Positions 10,522 to 28,862 of a stretch of DNA of 47,672 bases are shown one piece after another. Made by a program: the position numbers and the translations under genes. Source of the stretch: Deltaproteobacteria bacterium. GTDB taxonomy: Bacteria; Desulfobacterota; Syntrophobacteria; Syntrophobacterales; Syntrophobacteraceae. The number at the start of each line of letters is the position of its first letter. The stretch's first letter is position 1. Location: contig JAJYDE010000031.1 in assembly GCA_021777755.1 (NCBI GenBank), positions 1 through 47,672 on the forward strand, written 5' to 3'. A model generated the notes under the pieces. The model was not told where the DNA came from. It made no database searches and saw only the letters and a list, made by a program, of their open reading frames with translations.

Positions 10522-11952
10522 TCAGCCAACCATCGCCCGAACGAGGTTGAGAACGGGCGCGGGCATCACTCCAATCCAAAAGAGCAAAACGGCAAGGAGG
10601 GTCAAAACGAAGGCGTTTGAAAAAGAAAGGGGGGGCTTTGGCCGCCGGTCTCCGCCCGAAGGTGCCAAGACAAACAGGGCGACCAGGATGCGCAGATAGT
10701 AGTAAAGGCCCATTGCACTGGTAAGGGCCAGGATTATGACCAGGGGCCAGAGGGCCGCGCCAACGCCTGCCAGGGTCAGGTAGAACTTGCCGATGAATCC
10801 GGCGGTCAGCGGCAATCCGGCCAGGGAGAGCACCATCAGGGTAAACACCGCGGCTAGGAAGGGATTTTGCCGGGCAAGTCCCCTGTAGTCATCCAGGTTT
10901 TCCCTTTCCATGCCGGGGGTCGAAAGCGCCGAGACGACCCCGAAAGAACCCAGGGTGGCCAGAAAGTAGGTGATCAGATAAAAGGATACCGCTTCGATGG
11001 CCCTTGCACCGCCCGCCAGAAACGCCACGAGGATATAGCCCGAATGGGCTATCGAAGAATACGCCAGGATGCGTTTGACGTTTTCTTGAAAAAGGGCCAG
11101 GAGATTGCCCGCTATCATACTGAGGGCGGCCATGAAGCCGAACACCCAAAACAGGGTGCTCCCGGTCTGGATCTCAGCGGGAGTAAAAAGCCGAAGAAGC
11201 ATCGCGACAACGGCCCCCTTGGATACGGTGGCTATGAAGGCCGTTACCGGTGCGGGGGCACCCTGGTAGACATCGGGCGTCCAGAGGTGAAAGGGCGCGA
11301 GTGCGAGCTTGAAACCCATGGCCACCACAATCATTGCAAGTCCTGCGACCATCCATTGATAGTCGGCATGTATGTGAGCCGCCCGCAGTTCATGGCCAAT
11401 TCGGCTGATGGACATTTCGCCCGACCAGGCATAGATCAAAGCCATCCCAAAGAGCAGGAAAGCCGAGGAGACGGAGGCCGGGACCAGGTATTTGACGGCG
11501 GCCTCGATATGGCCTTGAGTCATGGAAGGGAAGGCTGTGAGAGAATAGAGGGAGACGCTCAGCAACTCGAAACCCAGGAAAAATGTGGCGAAATGATCCG
11601 CGGCGGCCAATACCGTCGCCCCCAGGGTGGCAAGAAGCATAAGGATGAAGAATTCTTCGCGGTTCCGCTCAAATTCTTTCAGGTAGCTGAACGTAAAGGC
11701 TACGCAGGCGGCGGAGGCCAAAATCAGCAGGCCCGCATAAAAGGCCGTATACCCGTTGAGCATGAGAAAGAAGAGCCGGTGTGGATTTGAGTCCACCATA
11801 AGGGGCAGGGTTGAAAAGGCCGCACCGAGTCCGACCAGGGTGAGAGCGGCCATGCCCGTATAGGCGCGGCGCAGGGCCACAAGCAGCATGACAAGGACCG
11901 CCGCGGCCCCGAGGCATATCAGTGGAGATATGGATGAAAGGGCCGCGGTCAT
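10522..11952 (-). CDS. nuoN: NADH-quinone oxidoreductase subunit N
   Basis: Proton-pumping membrane subunit of complex I, 476 residues, with about 14 helices. The Mrp-antiporter core is recognisable: the conserved Lys/Glu helices, the AFxLWTPDVYQGAP-type motif (ALAPFHLWTPDVYQGAPAP), and VKRILAYSSIAHSGY. The ATG at 11952 overlaps the stop of nuoM (ATGA). A longer open frame to 12477 is only a shadow inside nuoM. It is the last gene of the complex I operon. Confidence 0.95.
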   Translation of the reverse strand: MTAALSSISPLICLGAAAVLVMLLVALRRAYTGMAALTLVGLGAAFSTLPLMVDSNPHRLFFLMLNGYTAFYAGLLILASAACVAFTFSYLKEFERNREEFFILMLLATLGATVLAAADHFATFFLGFELLSVSLYSLTAFPSMTQGHIEAAVKYLVPASVSSAFLLFGMALIYAWSGEMSISRIGHELRAAHIHADYQWMVAGLAMIVVAMGFKLALAPFHLWTPDVYQGAPAPVTAFIATVSKGAVVAMLLRLFTPAEIQTGSTLFWVFGFMAALSMIAGNLLALFQENVKRILAYSSIAHSGYILVAFLAGGARAIEAVSFYLITYFLATLGSFGVVSALSTPGMERENLDDYRGLARQNPFLAAVFTLMVLSLAGLPLTAGFIGKFYLTLAGVGAALWPLVIILALTSAMGLYYYLRILVALFVLAPSGGDRRPKPPLSFSNAFVLTLLAVLLFWIGVMPAPVLNLVRAMVG

Positions 11953-13466
11953 GGGGTCCTTCCTCGAACGGCGCGGGAAACCCCGGTGGTGCGGCCACTT
12001 TCCGGCGCGGGCGCGCTGCTCTGAGGTTTTTGCCGCAAGTTTTCCACAAAAGGCGAAACAGCGGTAAAAACGGGCCGTGGAAAAAGGCCCAACCACAGGA
12101 TCAAAACGCTCATAGCAGCCATTACGACCGTCTCCCTTCCGGAAAGATCGGGCGGGTTCCACCCCCGCGTGTTGGGGCCGTGAATCGTTCTCTGGACGAT
12201 CCAAACCGAGTAGACGCAGGAGGTTACAAATCCGAGCGAGGCCAAAACGGCCCAAAAGGGACTCACCTGGAAGACTCCCAGAAGCACCAGGAATTCTCCG
12301 ATGAAATTTCCAAGGCCGGGAAGACCCAGGGAGGCCATGGCGAAAAGCATCAGGGAGGCGCCCAGGCGCGGCATTGCGGACCAAAGCCCTCCCATGGAAT
12401 CGAGCTCCCGGGTATGGAGCCTTTCCCGCAGGCCGCCAACGAGGATGAAGAGTGCTCCCGTGCTGATGCCGTGGCAAAGGATCTGCATGACCACCCCGTA
12501 GAGGGCCAGGCGACTACCGGCAAAGGCTCCCAGCAGAACGAATCCCATGTGGCTGACGCTCGTATAGGCGATCATTCTTTTGAGATCCCGCTGGCCGAAG
12601 GCCAGCAGAGCGCCGTAGAGAATGGAGACGACTCCCAGCGCCATGGCTATGGGCGCGAAATGGCGAACAGCGGAGGCAAACAGCGGAAGGACGAAGCGCA
12701 GGATACCGTATGCGCCGGTCTTGAGAAGAAGGCCGGCCAGAACGACGCTTCCCGCCGTGGGAGCTTCGGTGTGAGCGTCGGGGAGCCAGGAATGGAAGGG
12801 TACGGAGGGCAGTTTTACGACAAAGGCGATGAGAAATCCTGACATGATCAACATGGCCGCCGAGTGAGAAAGCGGGGTTTTTAGCAGTTGGATGTAGTCG
12901 AAGGTGTAATGGCCCGTGTTTTGGCCGTGAAGAAAATAGAGGGCGAGGATGGCCACAAGCATTAAAAGGCCGCTCACCTGGGTGAACAAGAAGAATTTAC
13001 AGGAGGCGTAGACCCGGTTTTCATGGCCCCAAAGGGCGATAAGGAAATACATCGGGAGGATCATCACTTCCCAGAAAAAATAGAATAGAAACAGGTCGAG
13101 GGAAAGAAAGACTCCCGTAACGCCAGAAAGTGTCAGCAGCAGGTTGAAATAGAAAAAGCCGGTCCGCTCGTTTATCTCGGTCCAGGCGGAGGCTACGGCC
13201 GCAAGGCCCAGGAAGGCAGTAAGAAGCACCAGAACCAGACTCAGCCCGTCACAGTAAAGATGGATTGTTATGCCAAACCGTGGAATCCATGGGACCACGA
13301 ATCGGGCCGAGCCCGAACGAAAAGCGGCCAGATAAACGGCTGCGAGGAGTTCGGCGGCCATGGCGGCAAGAGCCGCGAACTTGGGCCGGGCGGGATTAAA
13401 CCGTTCGGTAAACCAGGCAAGAAGCCCCCCGACGGCGGGAATGAGTATCAGCCCGGCCAGTATCAT
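11949..13466 (-). CDS. nuoM: NADH-quinone oxidoreductase subunit M
   Basis: Antiporter-like proton-pumping subunit, 505 residues. Diagnostic segments are LFLFYFFWEVMILPMYFLIALWG (with the conserved Glu), LPSVPFHSWLPDAHTEAPTAGS, and LKRMIAYTSVSHMGFV. I start at the ATG 13466, which overlaps the nuoL stop and begins MILAGLILIPAVGG. The in-frame extension to 13553 lies within nuoL. The order L-M-N at the operon end is the standard one. Confidence 0.95.
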   Translation of the reverse strand: MILAGLILIPAVGGLLAWFTERFNPARPKFAALAAMAAELLAAVYLAAFRSGSARFVVPWIPRFGITIHLYCDGLSLVLVLLTAFLGLAAVASAWTEINERTGFFYFNLLLTLSGVTGVFLSLDLFLFYFFWEVMILPMYFLIALWGHENRVYASCKFFLFTQVSGLLMLVAILALYFLHGQNTGHYTFDYIQLLKTPLSHSAAMLIMSGFLIAFVVKLPSVPFHSWLPDAHTEAPTAGSVVLAGLLLKTGAYGILRFVLPLFASAVRHFAPIAMALGVVSILYGALLAFGQRDLKRMIAYTSVSHMGFVLLGAFAGSRLALYGVVMQILCHGISTGALFILVGGLRERLHTRELDSMGGLWSAMPRLGASLMLFAMASLGLPGLGNFIGEFLVLLGVFQVSPFWAVLASLGFVTSCVYSVWIVQRTIHGPNTRGWNPPDLSGRETVVMAAMSVLILWLGLFPRPVFTAVSPFVENLRQKPQSSAPAPESGRTTGVSRAVRGRTP

Positions 13467-15352
13467 AAGAACACCGCCAATCCTATTATTATGGCCGCAC
13501 CCAGGGCAATCCCCAGCACGAAGGAGCGAACGCGCCCGTTTTCGGTGGCGCAAAGCCCTCTCCAGCCCTGCCGGCTGAGCCGGGAGAGCCCGGTGTAGAA
13601 ATAATCTATCACGTCGTCGCGGTTGATGCGGGCCAGCATGGCGTAGGGGGAAACGAGCACCAGGTCATATAAGCGGTCAAATCCCCAGCCGGAAAACCAA
13701 AAGCTGTGGAGCGCCTTTGCCCGAGGAGATTCGGAAATCTTTTCGTACATTCGGGACCGCATCAACAACTCGATCAGCAGGATACCGCCAAGGGAGACGC
13801 AGGCTGCAAACACCCCGAACATGCCTTGATGGACTGCCCGGCCGGGGGCGGTAACAAAGGAAGGAAGATCCCGGGTCAGAAATTTTGTGAGTGCTGAGCC
13901 GCCTCCGAAATTTTTCGGGAGGTCCACCAGGCCGCCCGCTATCGACAGAACGGCCAAAACCACCAGGGGCAGGCTCATTGGCCATCCGGGCCGTTTGGTG
14001 GCATTTTTGCGAAGGGGTCCGAAAAAAGTCAGCAGCACCATCCGAAAGGTATACATGGAGGTCAGAAGCGAGCCGAATATGGCGGCCGCCCACAGCCAAA
14101 CGGAGCCGCGAGCGGAACAATAAGCCTTCCAGATGATCAAGTCCTTGCTGTAAAAGCCCGCGGTTATAAGCGGAACGGCCGAAAGCGAGCAAGCGCCGAT
14201 GAGGAACGTCCAGAACACCAGGGGCATCTGTTTTCGCAGCCCGCCCATTTTGAACATGTCATGTTCGCCGTCTGTGGCGGCAATCACGCAGCCGGCGCCA
14301 AGAAAGAGAAGAGCCTTGAAAAAGGCATGGGTCATGAAGTGGAATATGGCCGCCGACCAGGCCCCGACGCCCAGGGCGAGAAACATGTAGCCTATCTGGG
14401 AGATGGTCGAGTAGGCGAGAACACGTTTTATATCGTGCTGCACCAAGCCGCTGAAGCCGGCGACAACCAGGGTGGCCGCCCCGATTACGGCCACCGCGGT
14501 CAGGGCCGCCGGCGAAAGCATGAAGAGCACGTTGGTCCTGGCGATAAGATAGACTCCGGCGGTAACCATGGTGGCGGCGTGGATCAGCGCGCTTACCGGG
14601 GTGGGGCCTGCCATGGCGTCGGGAAGCCAGGTCTGAAGAGGCAACTGGGCCGATTTTCCGACCGCCCCGGCAAGCAGGAGCAAGGCGGTCACTGTGGCTA
14701 TGGGAGAACCCGCCGGCCAGGTGTCACGGGCCGCGAGCATGACCTCCCCGATCCGCAGGGTCCCGAGGTGGGTGAATATGATAAACAGCGCTATCGCCAA
14801 CGCCGTATCGCCCACCCGGGTGACGATGAAAGCCTTCCGGGCTGCGTAACCGTTTTGAGGTTCCCCGTACCAGAAACCGATCAGAAGATAACTGCAAAGC
14901 CCCACGCCTTCCCAACCGAGGTACAAAAGCAGGAAGTTGTCGGCCAGCACCAGTGTGAGCATCGAGCCCACGAAAAGATTCATCTGCGCAAAAAACCGGC
15001 TGTAGTCCGCATCGCCGATCATGAATTCGGTAGAGTACAGATGGATGAGAAAGGAGACCAAGGTTATGACCAGAATCATCACAAGGGAAAGGGCGTCGAG
15101 GTGGAGGGAAACCGAGGGACCAAAGCCCGCGACATCGAGCCAGCTCCAGAGGGTTTGAGTATAGGTGAAGGAGTGGGAGGAAGTGTGGCCGATAAAACTT
15201 ATGGCCACAAGGCCCGTCAGGAGCGCGCAGATTCCAACTGAACCCGCGCCCAGGCAGGCAATGGCCCGGCGCGGGAGCTTCCGGCCGAGCAGGGCCAGAA
15301 AAAGCGAGCCGGCAAAAGGCAGTGCGGGAATTATCCAGAGAAGTTCGAGCAT
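13463..15352 (-). CDS. nuoL: NADH-quinone oxidoreductase subunit L
   Basis: Largest antiporter-like subunit, 629 residues. It contains LLYLGWEGVGLCSYLLIGFW, LQTWLPDAMAGPTPVSALIH and VLAYSTISQIGYMFLALG. The C-terminal extension includes the lateral helix that spans subunits M and N in known structures. Its length is near the family norm (about 610-650). It begins 1 base after the nuoK stop. Confidence 0.95.
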   Translation of the reverse strand: MLELLWIIPALPFAGSLFLALLGRKLPRRAIACLGAGSVGICALLTGLVAISFIGHTSSHSFTYTQTLWSWLDVAGFGPSVSLHLDALSLVMILVITLVSFLIHLYSTEFMIGDADYSRFFAQMNLFVGSMLTLVLADNFLLLYLGWEGVGLCSYLLIGFWYGEPQNGYAARKAFIVTRVGDTALAIALFIIFTHLGTLRIGEVMLAARDTWPAGSPIATVTALLLLAGAVGKSAQLPLQTWLPDAMAGPTPVSALIHAATMVTAGVYLIARTNVLFMLSPAALTAVAVIGAATLVVAGFSGLVQHDIKRVLAYSTISQIGYMFLALGVGAWSAAIFHFMTHAFFKALLFLGAGCVIAATDGEHDMFKMGGLRKQMPLVFWTFLIGACSLSAVPLITAGFYSKDLIIWKAYCSARGSVWLWAAAIFGSLLTSMYTFRMVLLTFFGPLRKNATKRPGWPMSLPLVVLAVLSIAGGLVDLPKNFGGGSALTKFLTRDLPSFVTAPGRAVHQGMFGVFAACVSLGGILLIELLMRSRMYEKISESPRAKALHSFWFSGWGFDRLYDLVLVSPYAMLARINRDDVIDYFYTGLSRLSRQGWRGLCATENGRVRSFVLGIALGAAIIIGLAVFL

Positions 15353-15353
15353 A

Positions 15354-15659
15354 TCAGCCTCGCAGGCTTTTCGCCGCGTCCGTATCCAAAATCTTCAGGC
15401 GGTGGTGCATCTGCAGCACAAGGGCCAGGGCCACGGAGACTTCCGCGGCGGCCATGGAAACAATGAAGATGAACATGATCTGGCCGTCGGGTTTTGCCCA
15501 GCGGGCGCCCGCGGCCACAAAGGCAAGCCCCGCGGCATTGAACATGATTTCAATGGACAGAAGCATGAAGACGATATTGCGACGTACGAGCACTCCGATG
15601 AGTCCGAGGAAAAACAGCACCGCCGCAAGAATGAGCACATGTCCAACGATCCGGGTCAT
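15354..15659 (-). CDS. nuoK: NADH-quinone oxidoreductase subunit K
   Basis: Small membrane subunit, 101 residues and three helices. It holds the two conserved membrane glutamates in [20 protein letters not shown] and [13 protein letters not shown], which belong to the proton path next to the quinone site. Its start overlaps the nuoJ stop (ATGA). Length and sequence are typical. Confidence 0.95.
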
Positions 15660-16186
15660 GGCGTGGATTCCTCCACCGGGCCGGGTTCGTGCCTGCGGGC
15701 TTCCCCATAACCGCGCCCCAGGTGGTAGGCACCTATAAGGCCGCTTAGAAGAAGCATCGAGGCAAGCTCGGTTGCAAGTAGATAGGGACCGAAGAGGGCA
15801 ATCCCGACTTCTTCGGGGCTCACTTCGCCAAAACCCGCACCCCCTCCGCCCCGCAGGACAAAGAGCAGTTCAGCCAAAAGTGCGGCGGAGAGCAAAAACG
15901 GCCCGAACCAAACACGCGCCGGATGCCAGGAGCGTTCCTCATCGGCGGACCGCGGCCCCAGGTTTAGCATCATGACCACGAACACAAACAGCACCATTAT
16001 GGCTCCGGCATAGATGATCACTTCCAGGGCGGCGGCGAAAGGCGCCCCCAGAAGAAAGAAAATCACCGCCAGGGAGAGCAACGACACGATCAGGTATAGC
16101 AGTGCGTGAACCGGATTAAACTCCAGGATCACCATGAGGGTGGCAATCACGGCTACGATCGAGGCCATGTAGAATAGAATATTCAT
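15656..16186 (-). CDS. nuoJ: NADH-quinone oxidoreductase subunit J
   Basis: Membrane subunit, 176 residues with five helices. The hallmark [20 protein letters not shown] is present; this is the helix that changes between pi-bulge and straight forms during catalysis. The hydrophilic C-terminal tail with many Glu and Pro is short. Thirty-three bases separate it from nuoI, one of the few gaps in the operon. Confidence 0.95.
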
Positions 16187-16219: not shown

Positions 16220-16735
16220 CTACGGCAGCAGGCTGCGAACATCGACCGGAGGCAGTTCGTTTTCCGACTCCCCTTTTCCCTTTACTCCGACCGCCACGCC
16301 CGCAACCCGGAAGAAATTATAGTCGGGGTGCTTTCCGGGGCCGCTTATCAGTAAATCTTCCTTTTCATAGACCATGTTGTTTCGGTCATACTCGCTGAAT
16401 TCGAAATCGTTGGTGAGTTGTATGGCATAGGTCGGGCAAGCCTCTTCACAGAATCCGCACAAAATGCAGCGCGAAAAGTTAATGCGGAAAAATTCGGGAT
16501 AGCGCCTGCCGTTAACGTCTTGAGCGGCCTGGAGGGCGATGCAGTCGACCGGGCAGGCGGCCGAACACAGATAGCAGGCCACGCAGCGCTCCTGTCCGTC
16601 GGGGTCGAGCGACAATATGATACGCCCGCGGAACCGCGGAGGATCGAGTATATTCTGCTCGGGATACTGTATGGTTTCCCTGCTGCGAAACATGTGCAGG
16701 AAAACGCCCCATAAGGTTCGCAGTATGCTCAGCAT
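16220..16735 (-). CDS. nuoI: NADH-quinone oxidoreductase subunit I (two 4Fe-4S clusters)
   Basis: Peripheral-arm ferredoxin-like subunit, 171 residues. It has two classical cluster motifs, [15 protein letters not shown] and [12 protein letters not shown], for clusters N6a and N6b, which pass electrons to NuoB. The N-terminal amphipathic stretch ([12 protein letters not shown]) anchors it to the membrane arm. It lies between nuoH and nuoJ as in most bacteria. Confidence 0.96.
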
Positions 16736-16744
16736 GAACGCCCC

Positions 16745-17701
16745 CTATTTACGAAGAATGAGCAGAACGCCCGCGGTCGCAAGCAGGTTCAGCAGGGAAA
16801 GCGGCAAAAGGATCTTCCAGGCAAAGGACATGAGCTGATCGTAGCGCGGCCTTGGCAGGGCCGCCCGGATCAAAATGAAAAGGCAGATGAACACCAGAGT
16901 CTTTCCCGGAAGCCACACGATTGGCGGCAGAAGGGGACCTTGCCAGCCGCCGAAAAAAAGAGTGGCGATCATTAGCGAGGTGAAGGTGACGCCAAGGTAT
17001 TCCCCGACGAAAAACATCCCGAATTTAAGACCTGAATATTCGGTGTGAAAGCCGCTTATGAGTTCGCTTTCCGCCTCCGGCAGGTCGAAGGGCAGCCGGT
17101 GTGTCTCCGCCAGGCCGGCGATGAAAAAGATTACGAATCCCGCAAATTGAGGAATGCAAAACCACAATCCGCGCTGGGCCTCGACGATGGCCTCAAGACT
17201 GAAGGAGCCCGCCATCATCACAACGCCCATGAGTGAGAGTCCCATGAAGACTTCGTAGCTGAGCAACTGGGCGGTGGCCCGCAGGCTTCCGAGCAGCGGG
17301 TATTTACTCCGGGAAGACCAGCCGCCCAGAACGATTCCGTAGACGCTTAGCGAGGCCATGGCCAGGAAAAAGAGCAGGCCGATGTTGAGGTTGGCAACGA
17401 CTATGCCCGGGGAAAAGGGAATGACCGCATAGGGGATGAGCGTTGCGGCGACGATGATGGCCGGCGCCAGCACAAAGACGGGTTTGTCGGCAAAGGGGGG
17501 TATCCAGTCTTCTTTGAAGAAGATTTTGATCATGTCCGCCATCACCTGAAAAAGGCCGAAGGGGCCAACGCGGTTGGGCCCGTAGCGGTCCTGCCAAACG
17601 CCCAGCAACCGTCTTTCGAGCCATATGAGAGAGGCGCTGACGCTCATGGCTCCGATCAGCACAACCAGGGCGATTATTATGTGAAGCAGGATTTCATTCA
17701 T
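16745..17701 (-). CDS. nuoH: NADH-quinone oxidoreductase subunit H
   Basis: Membrane subunit that forms part of the quinone cavity, 318 residues and about eight helices. Characteristic segments are [20 protein letters not shown] and the conserved Glu loop [17 protein letters not shown], followed by [11 protein letters not shown]. It overlaps the end of nuoG by 8 bases. Confidence 0.96.
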
Positions 17702-20423
17702 CGGTGGCTTCCCTTACAACCGTCCCCGAGGCTGGCAGCTCAAATACGGGCGCACCGCGCAGGCCAACGGGCAGTCCCGCCACCGCGCGAGGCAGAGACG
17801 GAACTATTCGCACGCTCAAACAGCAGGTTAAACCCTCCACGCCCACTTTGGCCAGGGCGCCTTCGAACAGTCCAAGAAAGGAGGCGTCTTCGGGATTGAG
17901 GGCCACGTAAGGTTGCGGACAAAGTTCGGCCACTCCCGGCGATAGAGCGCTCAATTCTTCCGAGCCGAAGATATGGTGGAGCGGGATTAACGACATTTCC
18001 CCTTCGGCTTTCGGAGCCGAAGCGGGAACATCTCTAAAATACTCGGTTCTTGCCTGCGGGATCGGCTCGATCAACCGCACTCCGGGGTCTTTGCCCCTCA
18101 AAGGGCCTCCGATTTCCTGCTGGAATTTATTGAGGGCCTGGACCGAATTCCACCCCGGGGCCCAGTAGCGTGGAATTAGCGAGGGCGGGGGTTGACGAGG
18201 ATCGCCCTCCATCGAAAAGGTCAGTGGAGTATCCGGATCGTCGGGAGGGGGTTGTTCGAATACATCAATGTGGGCCCGCATGGCCGTTCGCCCACTGTAG
18301 CGCGGGGCCTGCCGGGGGATCTTGCCGCCCGCGAGCCTGAAATCGGCATCGGGAGCCACCGAAACAAGGCCGGCAAATAGAGGATTCAGGGCCGCCATCG
18401 CCACGCTCAGATCGTCCAAGCGATGCCACTTCTCAGCTTCGGAGCGGCCGAGAAACCTCATGATATCCCGAATCCAGCGCCAGCTTTCTTTTACTTCAAA
18501 TTCGGGAACCAATACCCGGTAGAAGCGCTGAGCGCGGCCTTCGTTATTGACAAGAGTGCCTGAAGCTTCGGCGAACGCGGCGGCGGGCAAAACCAGATCG
18601 GCCTTGGAGGTCGTGGGATTTATAAGGTGATCGATTGCGACCAGATATTTTGCGGAGTCGAAAAGAGCGATTGCTTTTTCCTCGGCGCACCGCCGAAAAA
18701 GATCGTTTTCGATGACCACGACCGTATCCGCCCGGCCGCTTCGAAGAGCGGAGCACGCGGTTTCAAGGCCACCCGCGGCCCCGAGCAGAGCCAGCCCCAG
18801 GCTGTTCGCCTCGGGAAGCGCGAAAAAGATTTGCGGTTGCCCGCCGATTTTTCCAAGAGCCGTGCAAATGTTGGCGGCGGCCTCGATGAGTGCCAGGCTA
18901 GCGCATCCGGCGCCTGAAACAATAAGTGGCCGGGCCGCACCTCCAAGTGCACTGGCGATTTCACCTGCCCGAATCTTTTCTTTTTCCGTAAGGCCTTCGA
19001 CCCCTGGAGCGTTTGCGGGATCGAGAACGGAGGCCACCGCGAATCCTAGCCGGGCAAGTTCGGATATGTCCCCGTGAAAGCTCTTCGAGGCGACCTCGTC
19101 CAACCCGGTCGCGCAGGGTGAGGCAATGTAGAGGCTCCCTTTTTCGAATTCGGCGATCCGCTGGATGGGAGCGTCGTTCCAGGGGGGGATTTTCACCTTC
19201 GCCATCGCGATTTCAGCCTTTCGGCGGGGCAGTTGGCGGAGGTTCAAGGCGAGCAGCGGCGCGGAATTGCTTACGTCTTCGCCCAGGACGAAAACGGCGC
19301 CGGCTTCGGCTGTTTCGCTCAAGGTGGGCGTGCGAGCCGCGCCAAGGCATAAAACGTCCCGGATAAGATTTAGAACTTCCAGCTCTTTATCCGAAATCCC
19401 CGCATGGAAATTCTTCGGACCAACCAGGCGCAGAAGAGCGAAATTGGATTCAAGAGAGGCTCTTGGCGAGCCGATACCGATCACTTTGCGCCTTTCGGAA
19501 AGCATGGCGGCTGCGCTTTTGAGCGCATCTTCGGTGGAAACAAGGACTTGCTCGACCCCGCGGGATGTTCGGACCAGGGGCGCCCGAATGCGCCGGTCGC
19601 AGTTTACGAACTCGTAGCCGTAGCGGCCCCGGTCGCACAGGAAGTAGCCGTTAACCTCATGATTGTACCTGTTTCGCACACGCCTCAGTTCACCGTAGCG
19701 CGAGCCCGGTATGGTGTTGCACCCAAGGGCGCAGTGCACGCAAACCGAAGGTGCGGTCTGCAAATCCCATTTGCGGGTATAATGCCTGCCCAATGTCTTG
19801 TCGGTAAAAACTCCGGTGGGGCAGATTTCAACAAGGTTGCCACTAAATCCGCTTTCCAGCCTCCCTGCGCGGCCGCGGCCAAAATAGACATGATCGCGGG
19901 ATGCGAAGACGTTCAAGTCCCCCGCCCCGGCGTAATCATGGTAATAGCGCACGCAGCGGTAGCACTGGATGCAGCGGTTCATCTCGTGGTTTAGAAAGGC
20001 TCCAAGATACTGGTTGGGGTAGGTTCGCTTTTTGAACCTGTTTTCGCGGTATGCATGGCCGGTCATGACGGTCATATCCTGAAGGTGGCACTCGCCCCCT
20101 TCATCGCAAACCGGGCAGTCGTGGGGGTGATTGAGCATGAGCCATTCGATCACGCTTTTGCGAAAAGCGGCCACTTCGGGATCGTCAATGGAAATCCGCA
20201 CGCCGGCCTCCGCAGGTGTCATGCAGGCCATAATGATCTCGCCCCGCTCGTCCTTTTCGCTTTTGAAACGCTTTACCGCGCACTGACGGCATGCGCCGAC
20301 CGAGCCGAGGGCTGGATGCCAGCAAAAATAGGGCAGGTTCAACCCCCGGGAGAGGCAGGCCTGGAGAAGATTTTGCCCCTCTTCCACTTCATAGGGCAGA
20401 CCGTCGATGTGAATCGTTACCAT
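17694..20423 (-). CDS. nuoG: NADH-quinone oxidoreductase subunit G
   Basis: Large iron-sulfur subunit of the NADH module, 909 residues. The N-terminus has the 2Fe-2S ligands Cys34, Cys45, Cys48 and Cys67. Next come the His-Cys3 cluster ([14 protein letters not shown]) and the 4Fe-4S motif [17 protein letters not shown] further motif, [10 protein letters not shown], opens the molybdopterin-oxidoreductase-like region, corresponding to the extra cluster N7 found in some bacteria. The rest is the catalytically empty molybdopterin-type domain. Presence of E, F and G means this complex I takes electrons from NADH directly, unlike the 11-subunit versions of many sulfate reducers. Confidence 0.95.
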
Positions 20424-20440: not shown

Positions 20441-21715
20441 CTACTTCCATGGGCAGCTCTTCTGCCGAATGTGGCGCAAAAAGTCCTCTTCGAAAAGCGC
20501 AAGTCCGCTTTGAAGCGGTTCGACCGCGCCGGGAGCCAGGGCGCAAAAGGTATGTCCGGGCCCGAGAAGACCTGTGTGACGGTGCAGGATTTCCATATCC
20601 GCGGCTTGCCCCTCGCCGTTTTCGATCGCTTCGAGAGTGCGTACGAGCCAGGGCAACCCCTCACGGCACGGAGTACACCAGCCGCAGGACTCCCGCGCGA
20701 AGAAGCGCATCAAATTGAGGATCATCCCCACCGGGCAGGTCCGGTCGTCGAGCACGATCATCGTCCCGGTGCCAAGCCGGCTTCCGGCCGCTTCGACCGA
20801 ATCGAAGTCCATTTTCACATCCAGCCGATCGGCGGGCAGAAACTCCGTCGAAGCCCCTCCCGGCATTATTGCCCGAAGCGCCCAACCATCTTTCATCCCC
20901 CCCGCATGTTCTTCCAGGATTTCTCGGATCGAGGCGCCCATGGGAAGCTCCCAGAGTCCCGGCTTTTTGACCCGGCCGCTCACGCCGTAGAGCTTGGTGC
21001 CCCCGTCGACGCTGTTGCTCAACGCCCGGAACCGGTCGGCCCCGTGTTCGGCTATTTGAGGTACGTTGCAGATGGTTTCAACGTTATTTACGATCGTTGG
21101 CTTGCCCCAAAGACCCGTTACGGGCGGAAAGGGGGGTTTGGCCCGGGGGATGGCGCGGCGGCCTTCGAGGGCGTTGAGAAGGGCTGTTTCCTCTCCGCAG
21201 ATGTAGCGGCCGGCGCTCGAGTGGAGGTAAACATCGAGGCTGAAACCGCTGCCGAGTATGTCGCGGCCAAGATAGCCCCGCTCGCAGGCTTCGGCTATGG
21301 CCCTGGCGCAGCGGTGTTCCGCAAGCGTATATTCCCGCCGCAAAAAAATGAAGGCGGTATCGGCCTCGATGGCGTATCCGGCGATGATAATTCCCTCGAT
21401 TAACTGATGAGGATTTCCTTCCAGCAGCAGCCTGTCCTTGAAAGTTCCGGGCTCCATCTCATCGGCGTTTATAATCAGGTAGACCGGATGGACGGCCTGT
21501 TCGCCCCGGGGAACGAAGCTCCATTTTCGCCCTGTGGGAAATCCGGCCCCGCCCCGGCCTCTAAGGTGGGAATCGGTGACCGTCTTGATAAGGCCCCCGG
21601 GGTCTGCATCGGCCAGGACCTTTCGCAAGGCGCGGTACCCCCCTGCCCTTTCGTAGTCGACAATGCCCGGGGGAAATTGCCCGGGCCGGATATTTTCCGT
21701 CAGCGGACGCTCCAT
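20441..21715 (-). CDS. nuoF: NADH-quinone oxidoreductase subunit F (NADH-binding)
   Basis: Flavoprotein subunit, 424 residues, which binds NADH and FMN and holds cluster N3. The glycine-rich nucleotide loop GRGGAGFPTGRKW, the FMN-site segment ICGEETALLNALEGRR, and the 4Fe-4S ligands in ESCGWCTPCREG are all present. The spacing to nuoG is 17 bases and to nuoE 13 bases. Confidence 0.96.
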   Translation of the reverse strand: MERPLTENIRPGQFPPGIVDYERAGGYRALRKVLADADPGGLIKTVTDSHLRGRGGAGFPTGRKWSFVPRGEQAVHPVYLIINADEMEPGTFKDRLLLEGNPHQLIEGIIIAGYAIEADTAFIFLRREYTLAEHRCARAIAEACERGYLGRDILGSGFSLDVYLHSSAGRYICGEETALLNALEGRRAIPRAKPPFPPVTGLWGKPTIVNNVETICNVPQIAEHGADRFRALSNSVDGGTKLYGVSGRVKKPGLWELPMGASIREILEEHAGGMKDGWALRAIMPGGASTEFLPADRLDVKMDFDSVEAAGSRLGTGTMIVLDDRTCPVGMILNLMRFFARESCGWCTPCREGLPWLVRTLEAIENGEGQAADMEILHRHTGLLGPGHTFCALAPGAVEPLQSGLALFEEDFLRHIRQKSCPWK

Positions 21716-21728
21716 TCAGAATGACTTT

Positions 21729-22193
21729 CTATTCGTAGCGAGCCAGAATTTCGTCTATCTTTTGCCGACGGAGATCTCCATGGAGATCCGCATCGATCAT
21801 GAGCGCGGGGGCATGATCGCAGGCCCCGAGACAGGCGTTTGGAAGAAGTGTGAACCGCCGGTCCGCGGTCGTTTGCCCAAGGGTTATTCCGAGGGTTTCC
21901 GCGAGGTAATCGAGGATCTGCTCGCAGCCCGTCGCCCAGCAGCTTACGCTGTCGCAGACAAGGATCACGTGACGGCCCACCGGTTTTCGGAAAATCAGGT
22001 TGTAGAAGGTCGCAACCGAATCGAGATCATCCACGCTCATTTCCAGAAAATCGGCCAGTTCGGCCAAGCTTTGGTCCGATATCCAGCCGCGCCGGCGCTG
22101 AAGGACTTTGAGCGCTTCGATGCATCCCCCGCGCTTCTGCTCGTAATGGGCAAGTTCCACGTCCATTTCAGCCAGTTCCTCACGGGTGAGCAT
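21729..22193 (-). CDS. nuoE: NADH-quinone oxidoreductase subunit E
   Basis: Thioredoxin-fold subunit with a 2Fe-2S cluster (N1a), 154 residues. Ligand motifs are VCDSVSCWATGC and NACLGACDHAP. I place the start at the ATG 22193 because a good ribosome site (GGGAGGA) lies 8 bases before it. The in-frame ATG at 22223 lies inside the end of nuoCD and has no such site. Confidence 0.94.
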   Translation of the reverse strand: MLTREELAEMDVELAHYEQKRGGCIEALKVLQRRRGWISDQSLAELADFLEMSVDDLDSVATFYNLIFRKPVGRHVILVCDSVSCWATGCEQILDYLAETLGITLGQTTADRRFTLLPNACLGACDHAPALMIDADLHGDLRRQKIDEILARYE

Positions 22194-22209
22194 TTCTTTA
22201 TCCTCCCGC

Positions 22210-23961
22210 CTATCGGTCCACATCGGCCATGACGAAATCGATACTTCCGAGGATCGCCAGCAGATCGGCGACCATCAACCCCCGACTCATGAGCGGAATC
22301 ATCTGCAGGTGGGCGAAGGAGGGAGTGCGGATCCTCGTGCGATACGACTGTGTGCCTCCATCGCTTATGAGGTAATAGCTGTTGCACCCCTTGGTGGCCT
22401 CGACGCCCACGGCGGCTTCCCCCGGGGGGATGACCGGCCCCCAACCGACCCCCAGGAAATGGGTTATGAGGGTTTCGATATCGCGCATTGTTTTTTCCTT
22501 TAGAGGAGGCGTTGTCAGGGGATGAAGTGCCTTGTGGGCGCCGGGGGGCATGTTATTTACGCACTGTTCAATAATCCGCAGGCTTTGGCGCATTTCCTCG
22601 ACCCGCACCTTGGAGCGGGCGTAACAATCACCGTTTCGTTCGACAGGGACCTCGAAGTCGAACTGCTCGTAGCCCGAATAGGGACGTTTCTTTCTAAAGT
22701 CCCATTCGAAACCGCAAGCCCGAAGCCCGGGGCCGGTAACACCCCACTCGATCGCCTCTTCCACCGTGTAGCCGCCGATGCCCATTGAACGTGCCTTGAA
22801 GATCCGGTTGCGCATCACCATACCGTCGTATTCCTTGAGACGGCGCAGCATATAGGGCAGGAAGGCGCGAACCATCTTCTCCCAGCCTTCGGGCAGATCC
22901 TGAGCCACACCGCCGATTCGAAACCACATGGGGTGCATGCGCCCGCCCATCACCGCCTTGACGATATCCAATATTCGTTCGCGATCGTTAAAAGTGTAAA
23001 AGACCGGGGAGAGCATCCCGAGGTCCTGGGCGAAAGTGCCGTACCACACCAGGTGGCTGGCGATCCGGAAAAGTTCGACCATCATGACGCGGATAACCTT
23101 GACGCGGTCGGGAACTTCGATCCCGGCCAGCTTTTCCACGGCAAGCACATAGGGCAGGTTGTTGGTAACCCCGCCCAGATAGTCAATCCGGTCGGTATAG
23201 GGGATATAGGTGTGCCATGTCTGGCGTTCGCCCATCTTTTCCGCACCCCGATGATGAAAGCCTATTTCGGGAACCACGTTTACAATCTCTTCGCCGTCGA
23301 GCTGGAGCATGAGGCGAAAGACGCCGTGGGTGCCCGGATGTTGCGGGCCGAGGTTTAAAAACATCATGTCGGTATCCTCCCCGCAGCTTGTGAGGCCCCA
23401 TTGTTCGGGATGGAACCTCAGGGCTTCCTCGGCTCTTTCCTGCCGGTCCGGAGGCAGGCTGAAGGGTTCCATGTCGGTTGCGCGCGCGGGGTGATCCTTC
23501 CTTAGGGGATGGCCTTCCCAGTCCGGAGGCATGAGGATGCGCCGAAGACTCGTTCGCCCCTCGAACCCGATTCCGAACATGTCCCAGACCTCACGTTCAT
23601 ACCAGTCGGCCGAAGGCCACAGGTCGGTTATGGTGGCCATCGAGGGGGTTTGCGCCTGAAGAGGCGTTTTGATCCGGATATCTCCATTTCGATCGAAGGA
23701 GAGCAAGTGGTAGACGAGGCTGAAATCGCAGGGGGGTTGGCCCTGGCGATGAGTTCTCAACCGCTCGTCGATGGCGGTGAGGTCGAAGAGCATTCTGTAG
23801 GGTTTGCTTGTTTGGGACTTGAGATATTTCAGGACCGAGTGGACTTCATCGCTTTGGACCCACAGGGTGGGGATTTCGTCTCGCACGGGTTGCTCGGCCA
23901 GAACGGCCGAACCGAACCTCTCTTTTAGTTCGCAAGCGATGCCGCCCGGACTTTCCATCAT
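22210..23961 (-). CDS. nuoCD: NADH-quinone oxidoreductase subunits C and D, fused
   Basis: Fusion of the 30-kDa (about residues 15-170) and 49-kDa (about 200-583) subunits, 583 residues in one frame. The C part has [13 protein letters not shown] and the L-rich [17 protein letters not shown] motif. The D part has [16 protein letters not shown] (quinone-site His), [10 protein letters not shown] and TDRIDYLGG. The join runs through a short linker ([16 protein letters not shown]). Such fusions are known, for example in E. coli. The start overlaps the nuoB stop (ATGA). Confidence 0.96.
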
Positions 23962-24614
23962 CGGTTTCCGCTTTGAGTGGTAATGGTTTCGGGAGAGGGC
24001 AGCACGGTTACCTTGCGCCGCTCTTGCCGTTTGAGCTCTTTCATGGATGGAAGAGGCGGCCTGGCAAGGGACTTCGCACCGACGACCCGGCTGATGGGCC
24101 GCTTTTCTTGTCCGACCATGCTTCGGAGCATGAGCAGCCCCTCCATGAAGGCGCCAGGGCTTGGCGGACAGCCGGGCACGTAGACATCGACGGGCAGGAT
24201 TCTATCGACCCCCTGGACCACGGAATAAATATCGTACATGCCCCCCGAGTTGGCGCAGGAGCCCATGGAGATCACCCAGCGCGGCTCCATCATCTGTTGA
24301 TAGAGTCTTAGGATCATCGGCGCGCATTTAATGAACGGAGTACCGGCAATGACCATGAGGTCCGATTCCCGGGGTGTGCCCCGAATCACCTCGGCGCCGA
24401 ACCGGGCGATATCGTAGCGGCTCGTAATGCTTGCGGCCATCTCCACATAGCAGCAGGAGAGGCCGAAATTGAACGGCCAGATGGAATTTTTGCGTCCCCA
24501 GGCCACCAGGTCTTCAAGCCGGCAGAAAAGCAGGTCTTTGCCCACGGCTTGCTCGACGGGGTCCGATGCGGGTTTTGGTGAGCCATTCCCTGAGCGGCCA
24601 AACCACCTGCGCAT
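23958..24614 (-). CDS. nuoB: NADH-quinone oxidoreductase subunit B (cluster N2)
   Basis: Peripheral subunit, 218 residues, holding the terminal cluster N2 that reduces quinone. Ligands lie in GLSCCYVEM (tandem Cys54-Cys55), GSCANSGG and VPGCPPSP. The basic and Pro-rich C-terminal tail after about residue 165 is longer than in many homologues. A purine-rich ribosome site (GGGGGAA) precedes the ATG. A 37-base gap separates it from the CBS gene. Confidence 0.96.
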
Positions 24615-24651
24615 GACGAGTTCCCCCTGATCGATCGAGGTTTGGAGCGGA

Positions 24652-25110
24652 TCAGAGTTTTGCCTTGTCTCCGACCGCGTGTTGCCCTTTGATGTAGCAT
24701 TCCAGTTGCTCGATCACCGCCTCGTGATGGTCGATGACCCCTTTGACGGCATCGCCTATCGATATTATGCCTACCACCCGGTCGTTTTCGATTACCGGCA
24801 GATGGCGGATGTGCTTTTCGGTGAACAGTTCCATGCATTGTTCAAGGTCCGCGGCGGGGGTTACCGTCTTTATTTCCTCGCTCATGATCTCCCGTACCAG
24901 GGTCTCCTTTGAAAGTCTGTGCTGCAAAACACCCTTGCGGCAATAATCGCGTTCCGAGATGATCCCGACCAATCGGTCCGCCTCGAAGACCAGGAGTGCG
25001 CCCACGTTTTTGTCCGCCATAAGCTTCAGGGCATCGAAGACGCTGTCCCGCACACCTATGGAATAGACCGTCGTTCCTTTTTCCCTCAAAATATCCCTTA
25101 CATTTTTCAC
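24652..25110 (-). CDS. CBS-domain pair protein inside the nuo operon
   Basis: Small soluble protein, 152 residues, made almost wholly of two CBS motifs: about 8-65 ([29 protein letters not shown]) and about 75-130 ([31 protein letters not shown]). Such Bateman modules bind adenine nucleotides or related ligands and change partner activity. The GTG start overlaps the nuoA stop (GTGA), so it is made together with complex I. It is placed between nuoA and nuoB, where no structural subunit belongs. A role in sensing the energy state for complex I is an inference. No DNA-binding or catalytic domain is attached. Confidence 0.92.
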
Positions 25111-25538
25111 GAGATGTTTCCTTGTCGTATTCGGTTTTCCGGGCCCGCCTTCTGCCCGGGCGTCTTCCAGTCGAGCGCGCCGAGTCTGAACAGATAGAAG
25201 AGCGCGGCGGCGAGAATGGCCATGAAAACCGTCATTTCTCCATAGGCTCTCCAGCCCAGTTTTCTGAACGCGACCGCATAGGCATAGATGAAGGCCGCTT
25301 CGAGGTCGAAGATGACAAAAAACATGGCCATGAGATAGAAGCCCGCATGAAAGCGCAGTCGAGCCGACCCGGTGGAGACCAGCCCGGCTTCGTAGGGCTC
25401 CTCGGAGGCCTTGGTCACTTTGTGGCGCTCACCGAGCAGGGCGGACAGGATCAGCATGAAAGCGACCATGAGGAGCACGGCAGCGATGTAGACGACCAGG
25501 GGCCATAAAACATGAGGGGAAGTGTTTTGACCGCTCAT
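25107..25538 (-). CDS. nuoA: NADH-quinone oxidoreductase subunit A
   Basis: Small membrane subunit, 143 residues and three helices. Typical features are PYEAGLVSTGSARLRFHAGFY (the loop near the quinone entry) and the acidic helix FVIFDLEAAFIYAYAVAF. I start at the ATG 25538; a TTG four codons earlier is possible. It is the first gene of the operon. The C-terminal tail beyond the third helix is longer than in E. coli NuoA. Confidence 0.95.
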   Translation of the reverse strand: MSGQNTSPHVLWPLVVYIAAVLLMVAFMLILSALLGERHKVTKASEEPYEAGLVSTGSARLRFHAGFYLMAMFFVIFDLEAAFIYAYAVAFRKLGWRAYGEMTVFMAILAAALFYLFRLGALDWKTPGQKAGPENRIRQGNIS

Positions 25539-25572
25539 AGACGAATCCAAGTGGGGAAAACCCGTTGAGGCA

Positions 25573-25599
25573 AATGTATCGAACGCTTCCGCGAGTCAA
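25573..25599 (-). promoter_or_regulatory. Candidate promoter for the nuo operon
   Basis: TTGACT (25599-25594) and TACATT (25578-25573) are separated by 15 bases on the minus strand, about 35 bases before the nuoA ATG. The -35 is good and the -10 fair, but the spacing is shorter than the preferred 17, so it is only a candidate. Confidence 0.3.
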
Positions 25600-25743
25600 C
25601 ATAAGCAGAAAAGAAGCGGTAAGCAAGGAGCGGGGAGAAATGGCCACCGAATGTTTTCGGGGATTGGGAAGGACGAGGCCGACGCATTCATATGGCGACG
25701 CCTCCGGCCCGTTCTTATCATTTTTCCCAGTGAGGTTCCAACC

Positions 25744-26499
25744 ATGGACAAGACCAGTCTGGGATTGCCGGGCAACATTCGCGCCTGCCTTTTCGACCTC
25801 GATGGCGTGCTAACGGAGACGGCGAAGCTGCACGCCAAAGCATGGCGGAGGATGTTCGATGAATTTTTGAGTTCACGCGCCGCATCGCGAGGTGAACCGT
25901 TTGTCCCCTTCGATGCGGTTCGCGACTACGACGAATATGTGGACGGGAAACCGCGCGAGGACGGAACACGCTCCTTTTTGGCTTCGCGCGGGATCAAACT
26001 GCGCGAGGGAAGTGCCGACGATGCTTCTTCGGCGGAAACGATCCACGGGCTGGGCAGGCGAAAAAACGACATTCTGCTAGCCCTGGTGCATGAATCGGGA
26101 GTGGACGCCTATCCGGGCTCCGTTCGCTATCTGGAGGCTGTGAGGCGGGCAGGCCTTCTCACCGCGGTGGTTTCATCGAGCGAAAACTGCCGGGAAATGC
26201 TCATTTCCGCCGGTATCGAAAAGATGTTCGATGCGCGAATCGACGGGGTGAGCGCCCTGAGGCTGGGCCTTGCCGGAAAACCCGCGCCCGACACCTTCCT
26301 GGCGGCCGCCCGTTTTCTTGGCGTTCGGGCCTCCCGGGCCGCTGTTTTCGAAGATGCCCTGGCCGGTGTTCAGGCGGGTCGCGCCGGGGGGTTCGGCTTC
26401 GTCGTGGGCGTTGACCGTGCGGGTCAGGCCGAGCGGCTCCGCGCTCGCGGCGCGGACATCGTAGTGGACGATCTTGGCGAACTCATGGAGGCCACGTGA
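25744..26499 (+). CDS. pgmB: Beta-phosphoglucomutase family HAD hydrolase
   Basis: Converts beta-glucose 1-phosphate to glucose 6-phosphate, 251 residues. The HAD motifs are clear: FDLDGV with the nucleophile Asp18 and acid/base Asp20, VVSSSEN (motif II), the motif III lysine in GKPAPDTF, and FEDALAGV (motif IV). The cap-domain segment HAKAWRR matches beta-phosphoglucomutases. I start at the ATG 25744, which has GAGG 9 bases upstream; an earlier in-frame ATG at 25651 has no support. Its stop overlaps the GTG of the GH65 gene, so the two enzymes are made together. Confidence 0.9.
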   Translation: MDKTSLGLPGNIRACLFDLDGVLTETAKLHAKAWRRMFDEFLSSRAASRGEPFVPFDAVRDYDEYVDGKPREDGTRSFLASRGIKLREGSADDASSAETIHGLGRRKNDILLALVHESGVDAYPGSVRYLEAVRRAGLLTAVVSSSENCREMLISAGIEKMFDARIDGVSALRLGLAGKPAPDTFLAAARFLGVRASRAAVFEDALAGVQAGRAGGFGFVVGVDRAGQAERLRARGADIVVDDLGELMEAT

Positions 26500-28862
26500 T
26501 AAAGCACCCGGGTTTTCGCGTCGAGCCGTGGGCGCTCCATGAGACCGAGCTGCGGATGGAGTTGCTGGCTCAAAGCGAATCGCTTTTCGCCCTTTCAAAC
26601 GGACATATAGGGCTAAGGGGCAATCTCGACGAGGGTGAGCCCCACGGGCTGCCCGGCACCTATCTAAACGGATTCCATGAATTGCGGCCCCTGCCCTACG
26701 CCGAGTCGCAGTATGGATCGCCGGTGTCGAGTCAAACGACTGTCAATGTTACCAACGGCAAGCTCATCCGGTTGCTCGTCGATGACGAGCCCTTCGACGT
26801 TCGCTACGGGCAACTGCGGGTCCACGACCGGATACTGGACTTTCGCGCCGGGACCCTGACGCGAACCGCGGAGTGGACATCTCCGGCGGGACGCACGGTG
26901 CGGGTGGTCTCCCGAAGGTTTGTCTCCTTGACCCACCGGGCCTTGGTGGGAATCAGTTATGAACTGGAGCCCCTCGACGGTCCGGCCAGTGTCGTGGTGC
27001 AGTCGGAACTTGTCGCAAACGAGCAGCTTCCCGTATCGCCCGATGATCCACGCACGGCGGCCGCCTTGGAATCCCCCCTCGAGTGCGAGGAGCAACAGGC
27101 GATGCAAAGAGGCGCCGTGATGATCCATCGGAGCCGACGAAGCGGTCTGCGAATGGCTGCCGCGATGGACCACGTAATAAACGGAACGTCCAAGGCCCGT
27201 ATCACGACGGAGAGCTCCCCTGACTCGGCCCGCGTGGTGGTGACCGATGTGCTGGGGCAAGGCCGGCGGTTGAGCCTGGTAAAGTTTGTGGCCTACGGAT
27301 GGTCTCGCGAGCGCTCGGTCCCGGCCCTTCGCGACCAGGTCGCAGCAGCCCTGGCCGCTGCCGCCCAGGCCGGCCTGGAGGCTCTTCTCGCCGACCAGAG
27401 GCGATATCTGGAGGATTTCTGGGCGCGAGCCGATGTTGAAATCGGCGGGGACTCCGAGTTGCAGCAGGCGGTGCGTTTTTCCCTGTTTCACATTCTGCAG
27501 GCCGGGGCGCGGGCCGAAAGGCGCGCCATCCCCGCCAAGGGACTGACCGGATCGGGCTATGACGGCCACTGCTTCTGGGATACCGAGACATTCGTCCTGC
27601 CCGTGCTGACGCACACGGCGCCAACCGCGGCCGCGGACTGCCTTCGGTGGCGACATTCCACGCTCGGGGCCGCCACGCGGCGCGCCCGCGAGTTGGGCCT
27701 TTCCGGCGCCGCCTTCCCGTGGCGCACCATCGAGGGGGAGGAATGTTCAGGATACTGGCCCGCGGGAATTGCGGCCTTTCATGTCAACGCGGACATCTCC
27801 GATGCGGTGATCCGCTATGTGGACGCAACTGGAGATGAATCCTTCGAGCAAGACTTTGGCCTGGAGATCCTTGTGCAGACCGCCCGGCTCTGGCGCTCGC
27901 TGGGTCACCACGATTTTCAGGGCGGTTTTCGCATCGACGGCGTGACCGGTCCCGACGAGTATAGCGCCGTCGCCGACAACAATGTCTTCACCAACCTGAT
28001 GGCGGCGCGCAATCTTGGCGGAGCGGCCAAGGCCTGCGAACGTCACCGCAACGAGGCGCGCGAGCTTGGTGTAACGTCCGAGGAAATGGCGGACTGGCGC
28101 GCCGCGGCCGATCGCATTTTCATCCCTTATGACCGGCGTTTGGGCGTTCACCCGCAAGCCGAAGGGTTCACCGATCACGAGATGTGGGATTTTACCGTCG
28201 CTTCGCCCGATCGGTATCCGCTGCTGCTTCATTTTCCATATTTCGATCTGTATCGAAAGCAGGTGGTAAAACAGGCCGACCTTGTCCTGGCCATGCAACT
28301 GTGTCCCGACCGATTCAGCGAGGAGCAGAAAGCGAGAAACTTCGACTACTATGAACGCATCACGGTGCGGGATTCCTCCCTTTCGGCCTGCACCCAGGCG
28401 GTGCTTGCCAGTGAGGTCGGACACCTTCGGCTGGCGCTCGACTACGCGGCCGAGGCCGCTCTTATGGATTTGCACGACCTCGAGCACAATACGCGCGACG
28501 GCCTGCACATTGCCGCTCTTGCCGGGACATGGATCGCGCTGGTAAACGGTTTTGGCGGCATGCGCGATCATGCCGGAGTTCTCTCCTTCTCGCCCCGGCT
28601 GCCCGACGGCCTGACCTCGCTCGCTTTTTCCCTGGTTCGTCGAAACGCCTGGCTGCGGGTGGAGGTAAGAGCTCAGTCGGCTGTATATCGGCTGACAAAA
28701 GGCGACGGTCCCCTGCGGATCGTGCACCATGGAGAACCGTTGACCCTCACAAAAGATGTCGCGATCGAACGGCCGATTCCCGAAATCGAGCAGCGTGAAG
28801 AGCCTGCGCAGCCTCCGGGGCGCGAGCCGCTGCGGCGCTCTCCCGGCGGGGTCCGCCCTTAG
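26496..28862 (+). CDS. Glycoside hydrolase family 65 disaccharide phosphorylase
   Basis: Phosphorolysis of an alpha-linked glucose disaccharide to beta-glucose 1-phosphate plus glucose, 788 residues. The N-terminal beta-sandwich domain starts with ETELRMELLAQSESLFALSN and GHIGLRGNLDEG. The (alpha/alpha)6 barrel has CFWDTETF (Asp362) and the general acid Glu488 in GVTGPDEYS. A C-terminal beta domain follows. Trehalose, maltose, kojibiose and nigerose phosphorylases share these features, and I cannot tell the substrate. The coupled beta-phosphoglucomutase upstream fits the inverting phosphorylase reaction rather than hydrolysis. No signal peptide is present, so it acts in the cytoplasm. Confidence 0.9.
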   Translation: MIKHPGFRVEPWALHETELRMELLAQSESLFALSNGHIGLRGNLDEGEPHGLPGTYLNGFHELRPLPYAESQYGSPVSSQTTVNVTNGKLIRLLVDDEPFDVRYGQLRVHDRILDFRAGTLTRTAEWTSPAGRTVRVVSRRFVSLTHRALVGISYELEPLDGPASVVVQSELVANEQLPVSPDDPRTAAALESPLECEEQQAMQRGAVMIHRSRRSGLRMAAAMDHVINGTSKARITTESSPDSARVVVTDVLGQGRRLSLVKFVAYGWSRERSVPALRDQVAAALAAAAQAGLEALLADQRRYLEDFWARADVEIGGDSELQQAVRFSLFHILQAGARAERRAIPAKGLTGSGYDGHCFWDTETFVLPVLTHTAPTAAADCLRWRHSTLGAATRRARELGLSGAAFPWRTIEGEECSGYWPAGIAAFHVNADISDAVIRYVDATGDESFEQDFGLEILVQTARLWRSLGHHDFQGGFRIDGVTGPDEYSAVADNNVFTNLMAARNLGGAAKACERHRNEARELGVTSEEMADWRAAADRIFIPYDRRLGVHPQAEGFTDHEMWDFTVASPDRYPLLLHFPYFDLYRKQVVKQADLVLAMQLCPDRFSEEQKARNFDYYERITVRDSSLSACTQAVLASEVGHLRLALDYAAEAALMDLHDLEHNTRDGLHIAALAGTWIALVNGFGGMRDHAGVLSFSPRLPDGLTSLAFSLVRRNAWLRVEVRAQSAVYRLTKGDGPLRIVHHGEPLTLTKDVAIERPIPEIEQREEPAQPPGREPLRRSPGGVRP

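Follow-up and report, generated by a model that had tools for sequence, protein, structure and literature searches.

The closest described relatives of the protein considered here are stand-alone CBS-pair proteins in the PDB: 4FRY, a Burkholderia ambifaria 'putative signal-transduction protein with CBS domains', 2RC3 (NE2398) and 3FHM (ATU1752). We take 4FRY and 3FHM to hold AMP and NAD(H); the passages of the papers that name these two entries give no ligand. Two other stand-alone bacterial CBS proteins, AcuB and CBS-CP12, have the same fold as the protein described below, but differ from it in sequence (~18–30% identity) and in their longer chains (~170–220 residues), and presumably in gene context as well. 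AcuB structures are listed with AMP, ADP, ATP or Ap4A. For sulfate reducers, a passage of one study speculates that CBS proteins encoded in sulfate-uptake clusters sense energy status (PMC11887813).

The nearest published idea is that of plant CBSX3, a mitochondrial protein that likewise contains CBS domains and modulates a respiratory-chain enzyme, the likeness being one of published role. CBSX3 interacts with Trx-o2 and SDH1, and a dependence on ADP/ATP is reported, according to the relevant passages of two papers (PMC8154082, PMC11174532); its target is complex II, with thioredoxin, and not complex I. A passage on the plant CBSX proteins notes that AMP binds CBS proteins and that ADP, ATP and NADH had been suggested as CBSX ligands, and describes a 2021 test of chloroplast CBSX1/2 in which the thiol enzymes tried were unaffected (PMC7921703). 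A literature search returned no paper joining a CBS domain with the nuo operon, with nuoA and nuoB, or with pntB, and a broader search gave no bacterial complex I case among the matches listed. To our knowledge, bacterial complex I has no recognised dedicated nucleotide-sensing regulator.

The window (the whole stretch of 47,672 nucleotides that was analysed) contains a complete 14-subunit set of E. coli-type complex I genes together with a CBS gene, in the order nuoA, CBS, nuoB, fused nuoCD, E, F, G, H, I, J, K, L, M, N. That the rest of the operon is complete had been stated in the initial annotation and is borne out by Pfam matches to all 14 subunits, with nuoC and nuoD fused. The features, from the 5′ end of the operon, are:

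25107..25538, minus strand: nuoA, 143 aa from the ATG at 25538 (Pfam Oxidored_q4, 2.7e-28)
25117..25123, minus strand: ribosome-binding (Shine-Dalgarno)-like AAGGAAA, 6 nt 5′ of the CBS GTG and within the 3′ end of nuoA
24652..25110, minus strand: stand-alone CBS-pair protein, 152 aa, GTG start (Pfam CBS, 4.1e-25, two stretches)
23958..24614, minus strand: nuoB (Pfam Oxidored_q6, 2.1e-23)
22210..23961, minus strand: nuoCD fusion, E. coli type (NF008728, 1010 bits, cut-off 840; Pfam)
21729..22223, minus strand: nuoE (Pfam, 4.4e-46)
20441..21715, minus strand: nuoF, NADH- and FMN-binding subunit (Pfam, 4.5e-46; TIGR01959, 560 bits, cut-off 559)
17694..20423, minus strand: nuoG, 909 aa (TIGR01973, 592 bits, cut-off 470)
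16745..17701, minus strand: nuoH (Pfam NADHdh, 3.8e-120)
16220..16735, minus strand: nuoI (Pfam Fer4 families)
15656..16186, minus strand: nuoJ (Pfam Oxidored_q3)
15354..15659, minus strand: nuoK (Pfam Oxidored_q2)
13463..15352, minus strand: nuoL (Pfam Proton_antipo_M and _N)
11949..13553, minus strand: nuoM, longest ORF, true start probably further in (Pfam Proton_antipo_M)
10522..12477, minus strand: nuoN, longest ORF, true start probably further in (Pfam Proton_antipo_M)

The start of nuoA is most likely the ATG at 25538 rather than the TTG at 25550 of the longest-ORF listing. Three of the subunits (nuoL, nuoM and nuoN) are of the antiporter type. The NuoCD fusion is common to the window and the E. 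coli-type operon, NF008728 being satisfied by the window protein, and the gene order is presumably that of E. coli (nuoA-B-CD-E..N). The window differs in the CBS gene that is inserted between nuoA and nuoB.

The initial annotation had described a two-CBS protein, translationally coupled to nuoA, at this position, and the placement and the domain content both hold. The gene lies at 24652–25110 on the minus strand, and its 152-aa ORF contains two tandem CBS stretches in Pfam, where it scores 88.3 bits with PF00571 (cut-off 24). The nuoA TGA (25107–25109) consists of the last two bases of the CBS GTG and the A that follows, so that stop and start overlap as GTGA, and 37 nt separate the CBS stop from the nuoB start. 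Scans of 24400–25800 for promoters, terminators and repeats gave nothing convincing.

The AlphaFold model of the protein (mean pLDDT 91.2, with residues 146–152 unreliable) is a CBS pair in which the second CBS domain spans residues 72–124 and a C-terminal helix residues 118–140. The protein belongs to the same stand-alone CBS-pair subfamily as 4FRY, 2RC3 and 3FHM. A phmmer search against the PDB finds 4FRY best (1e-39), followed by 2RC3 (6.9e-34) and 3FHM (6e-18), and structure comparison of the model gives Z scores of 21.0 for 4FRY (rmsd 3.4 over 135), 20.8 for 2RC3 (1.3 over 127) and 19.4 for 3FHM (1.1 over 124); Foldseek superimposes the model on the three structures at rmsd 0.9–1.3 Å, with 32–48% identity. 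Two motifs, [ST]ERD[YF]xRK and RHLPV..SIGDxVK, are present among 97 aligned relatives. Both occur in 4FRY and 2RC3 (the latter with F for Y), and 3FHM has looser versions, TERDL and RHVPV. The phmmer alignment with 4FRY also extends to a common C-terminal QLE-YI stretch, and the helix after the second CBS domain is aligned in 4FRY and 3FHM; the 2RC3 chain stops before it.

In CBS sites that bind nucleotides, the ribose is usually contacted through an S/T-x-x-D motif, and this motif is intact at both sites of the CBS pair. At least 95% of the 97 aligned rows conserve G49, S/T52, E53, R54, D55, R58, R102, P105, S117, D120, L136 and Y139, and C92 is conserved in 93%.

Two questions are important for any functional link to complex I: (i) is the position of the gene conserved in related genomes and (ii) does the association recur elsewhere. 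For the first question we used a sample of 55 genomes of the class, the window's own included, and defined a close CBS relative as a match at E ≤ 1e-20. Such a relative is found in 6 of the 55 genomes, and in all six the arrangement is nuoA-CBS-nuoB; at this threshold the subfamily thus occurs in the class in the complex I operon only. The carriers are five of the 11 genomes of the genus and one genome from another family of the class, so that the position, whose conservation the initial annotation had left to be checked, is retained beyond the genus. Exactly the six CBS-bearing genomes have a NuoB match at E ≤ 4.5e-97. The best NuoB hit of the other 48 genomes that have one is 1.4e-68 or weaker, and one of the 55 is without a NuoB hit. 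Because the six genomes defined by NuoB are the six that bear the CBS gene, no close relative is seen that has the operon type and lacks the insertion, an absence that would have counted against the association. Within the class the CBS gene and the operon type therefore occur together, and the co-occurrence is strict; a Fisher test gives 3e-8, a value that is overstated because five of the six carriers are congeneric. In the 30 class NuoB loci that were read, six have the CBS gene, and in the other 24 (L100–L123) NuoA adjoins NuoB with no CBS match; most NuoB matches of these 24 fall within long open frames, which would be expected of NuoBCD fusions.

A seventh nuoA-CBS-nuoB case comes from a MAG filed as Deltaproteobacteria (L017), where 957 nt separate nuoA and the CBS gene. 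This interval contains a nucleotidyltransferase-like ORF (L017:4247–4720; Pfam NTP_transf_5, 27.7 bits, below the cut-off of 31.2). Over the seven cases the nuoA/CBS junction is a 4-nt overlap in three and a gap of 11, 27 or 957 nt in three. In one genome (G001, L010) the nuoA frame reaches 101 nt into the CBS gene, either through an assembly frameshift or as a longer overlap.

Purifying selection acts on the CBS gene about as strongly as on the genes beside it. Between the five congeneric genomes, pairwise dN/dS ranges over 0.14–0.32 for CBS, 0.09–0.25 for nuoA and 0.15–0.22 for nuoB, and the CBS values rule out a chance open reading frame.

The gene is nevertheless an optional addition to the operon and not a core subunit, as follows from its absence from operons of the same type. 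E. coli-type NuoCD (E ≤ 1e-260) is found in 11 of 395 genomes of the phylum, the window's included. Nine of the other ten operons, read from nuoB past nuoA, have no CBS match, and complex I can therefore do without the CBS protein; the tenth (G425) ends at a contig end, in a genome that is not among the CBS-bearing ones. A core subunit would be expected in every complex I of the type, and the CBS gene is missing from these nine operons and from two of four in the class of Chitinophaga (see below). Across the phylum sample the CBS protein is found at E ≤ 1e-20 in 37 genomes, with 43 matches listed. Thirty of these loci were read, the window's own among them; the other 29 have no adjacent NuoA, NuoB, NuoCD, NuoF or NuoH, and weak NuoE- or NuoG-like matches lie near the CBS gene in three (L131, L132 and L137). 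One genome (G366) has three CBS matches, none of them on its nuo contig.

The window's own genome allows a comparison between complex I-like clusters within one organism. Further NuoB matches lie on contigs C26, C76, C102 and C38, in four complex I-like clusters. The stretches read there (L259–L262, L264 and L265) have no NuoE, NuoF or NuoG match, and none of the four contigs has a CBS match at E ≤ 0.001. NuoF matches (E ≤ 1e-15) are confined to contigs C4, C98 and C8, the last two carrying further NuoF homologues. These placements indicate that the CBS gene goes with the sole complex I cluster that has its own NADH module. Elsewhere in the genome there are nine CBS relatives with weaker matches (E 6e-11 to 8e-4).

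For the second question, linkage to complex I extends beyond one lineage, to two genomes of the Chitinophaga class, one of Omnitrophota and one of Rhodobacterales. In the class of Chitinophaga tropicalis (G433, L068), the CBS protein is present at E ≤ 1e-25 in 21 of 295 genomes, and all 23 matches were read. A copy precedes nuoA in two genomes, G433 and G585 (loci L068/L169 and L168); C. tropicalis also has a second copy (L189) that is unlinked. E. coli-type NuoCD (E ≤ 1e-200) occurs in four of the 295, and the other two operons of this type, in G475 and G542, are without CBS at the operon. The Omnitrophota locus (L071) has the CBS gene followed by nuoA-B-C-D-E-F-G-H-I, with N-M-L-K-J behind on the other strand, and in the Rhodobacterales locus (L070) the CBS gene is followed by nuoH to N and then A to G. 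CBS matches are found in 19 of 145 genomes in the phylum of L071 (E ≤ 1e-20) and in 3 of 198 in the family of L070 (E ≤ 1e-25). All other matches in these two groups were read, and with one exception they show no complex I subunits among NuoA–H. The exception (L193:1504–3426) has the CBS gene ahead of a diaphorase-like protein in which NuoE and NuoF are fused, and behind a cobW/HypB-type gene, and is possibly an operon for an NAD-linked hydrogenase or dehydrogenase. Relatives in Paraburkholderia have no complex I subunit among NuoA–H within their flanks.

Other neighbours of the CBS relatives are diverse. The proton-translocating transhydrogenase gene pntB lies directly upstream in two Ignavibacteria (L019 and L021) and one member of the Acidobacteria (L054). 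Hand-picked neighbours include PNTB in 3 of 40 upstream proteins and, over 42 downstream proteins, malic enzyme (3), AlaDh/PNT (1), Complex1_51K (1), ETF-QO (1) and GATase_2 (7); one of the GATase_2 cases (L200) sits on a divergent branch of the CBS tree. Many neighbours, among them PGI, TspO, ABC proteins and glycosyl transferases, are unrelated, and a common NAD(P)H theme is at most suggestive.

The frequency of these associations was estimated from 112 representative loci of the subfamily and its near kin, obtained after clustering at 85% identity, on all of which the 14 Nuo queries were run. Eleven of the representatives are at a complex I operon, one is at NuoE-NuoF and 100 are at neither, and the family as a whole is therefore not a complex I factor. 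The initial annotation had held that occurrence of the same protein in unrelated operons would weigh against a link, and this is partly so: for these 100 loci the objection stands, yet the protein is linked to complex I in several phyla. Flanks of 4.9 kb on both sides were available for 32 of the 112, less than 1 kb on one side for seven and 1.5 kb for many, so more distant linkage would escape notice. Partial NuoE-, NuoG- or NuoI-like matches (E 1e-38 to 1e-4) at L131, L132, L137 and L142 were not counted as complex I. Beyond the 12 linked loci, the 14-query scan adds an Edaphobacter MAG (L078:6917–10417), in which nuoL-M-N, the last genes of a nuo operon, sit on the opposite strand at a distance of 1.5 kb from the CBS gene; its NuoM is 56% identical to that of the window.

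The CBS tree, which is poorly resolved, contains at least seven changes between linked and unlinked labels, three of them forced by well supported branches. A rough Poisson estimate for the five nuo or pntB placements outside the query's clade (0.5 expected) gives P ~2e-4, and for the three nuo placements alone, outside the same clade, a weak P of 0.009 to 0.05 depending on assumption. These estimates treat the 112 representatives as independent and assume 3000–4000 genes per genome, and the set is not a neutral sample because its members were collected through their similarity to a query that is itself nuo-linked. In a NuoCD tree built from 28 rows, the CBS-bearing operons require two changes. 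An AU test on this quick tree disfavours a single clade of all CBS-bearing E. coli-type operons (p 0.008), and one gain followed by losses is still compatible with it.

The window carries a real, conserved, selected and optional operon gene. Its product is most likely a nucleotide-responsive modulator of complex I, to judge solely from its position and fold. The best reading of the wider distribution is that a stand-alone adenylate or NAD(H) sensor has been recruited repeatedly to proton-pumping pyridine-nucleotide enzymes and is dedicated here to complex I. In more specific terms we propose, tentatively and with slightly less than even confidence, that the CBS-pair sensor is made together with complex I, binds an adenine nucleotide and tunes the enzyme post-translationally by binding to it. 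The sensor (a Bateman module) would be expressed jointly with complex I from its operon and would form a CBS-pair dimer, and AMP, ADP, ATP or NAD(H) might be bound in its two clefts, where the S/T-x-x-D motifs lie. The protein would then contact complex I physically, and NADH oxidation or reverse electron flow could be gated by energy charge or NADH level.

It is also possible, though on the doubtful side, that the protein acts as a detachable throttle, one that reads adenylate charge or NADH, switches complex I on and off, its reverse mode included, and was recruited independently by complex I and PntAB in several phyla, with CBSX3 as a potential counterpart. The reverse mode of complex I is of use to syntrophs and sulfate reducers. 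An operon-encoded CBS pair, from a subfamily also found at PntB and at a NuoE-NuoF diaphorase, would be a concrete and easily purified candidate regulator, and it would make testable how anaerobes that possibly run complex I backwards avoid draining the proton gradient.

We consider it rather unlikely that the protein is instead a sensor of energy or redox state in general, which shares its expression with complex I but acts elsewhere, either on NAD(P)H enzymes of other kinds or on a thioredoxin, as described for CBSX3. Such a sensor would account for the diverse neighbours of the relatives (pntB, malic enzyme, alanine dehydrogenase/PNT, GATase_2, an ETF-QO-like protein and unrelated genes) and for the conserved cysteine C92, and CBSX3, in the passages cited above, works with Trx-o2 and SDH1 (PMC8154082, PMC11174532). 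A general role is harder to reconcile with the confinement of the class copies (E ≤ 1e-20) to the complex I operon, and insertion between two subunit genes with a translational overlap suggests that the protein is needed in step with complex I.

The gene could also be a passenger, a chance insertion kept through the good expression of the operon and with no functional tie to complex I. We find this improbable, since purifying selection is about as strong as on nuoA and nuoB, relatives recur at complex I and PntB genes and presence tracks the operon type within the class, even though most relatives are unlinked, the position varies among phyla and the label changes in the trees are so few that a handful of chance events could explain them. 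A protein that helps to assemble or stabilise the NuoA/NuoB region, synthesised between the two subunits and with a structural ligand or none, would fit the nuoA-CBS-nuoB order and the overlap, but is very improbable given the placement upstream of nuoA or nuoH, or beside pntB, in other phyla, the nine same-type operons without CBS and the conserved ligand-site motifs.

Upstream of the operon, genes for a HAD-type hydrolase and a glycoside hydrolase of family 65 (25651–28862 of the window) are divergent from the nuo operon. Past its 3′ end, a short resolvase N-terminal ORF (6756–7061) is possibly the remnant of a mobile element.
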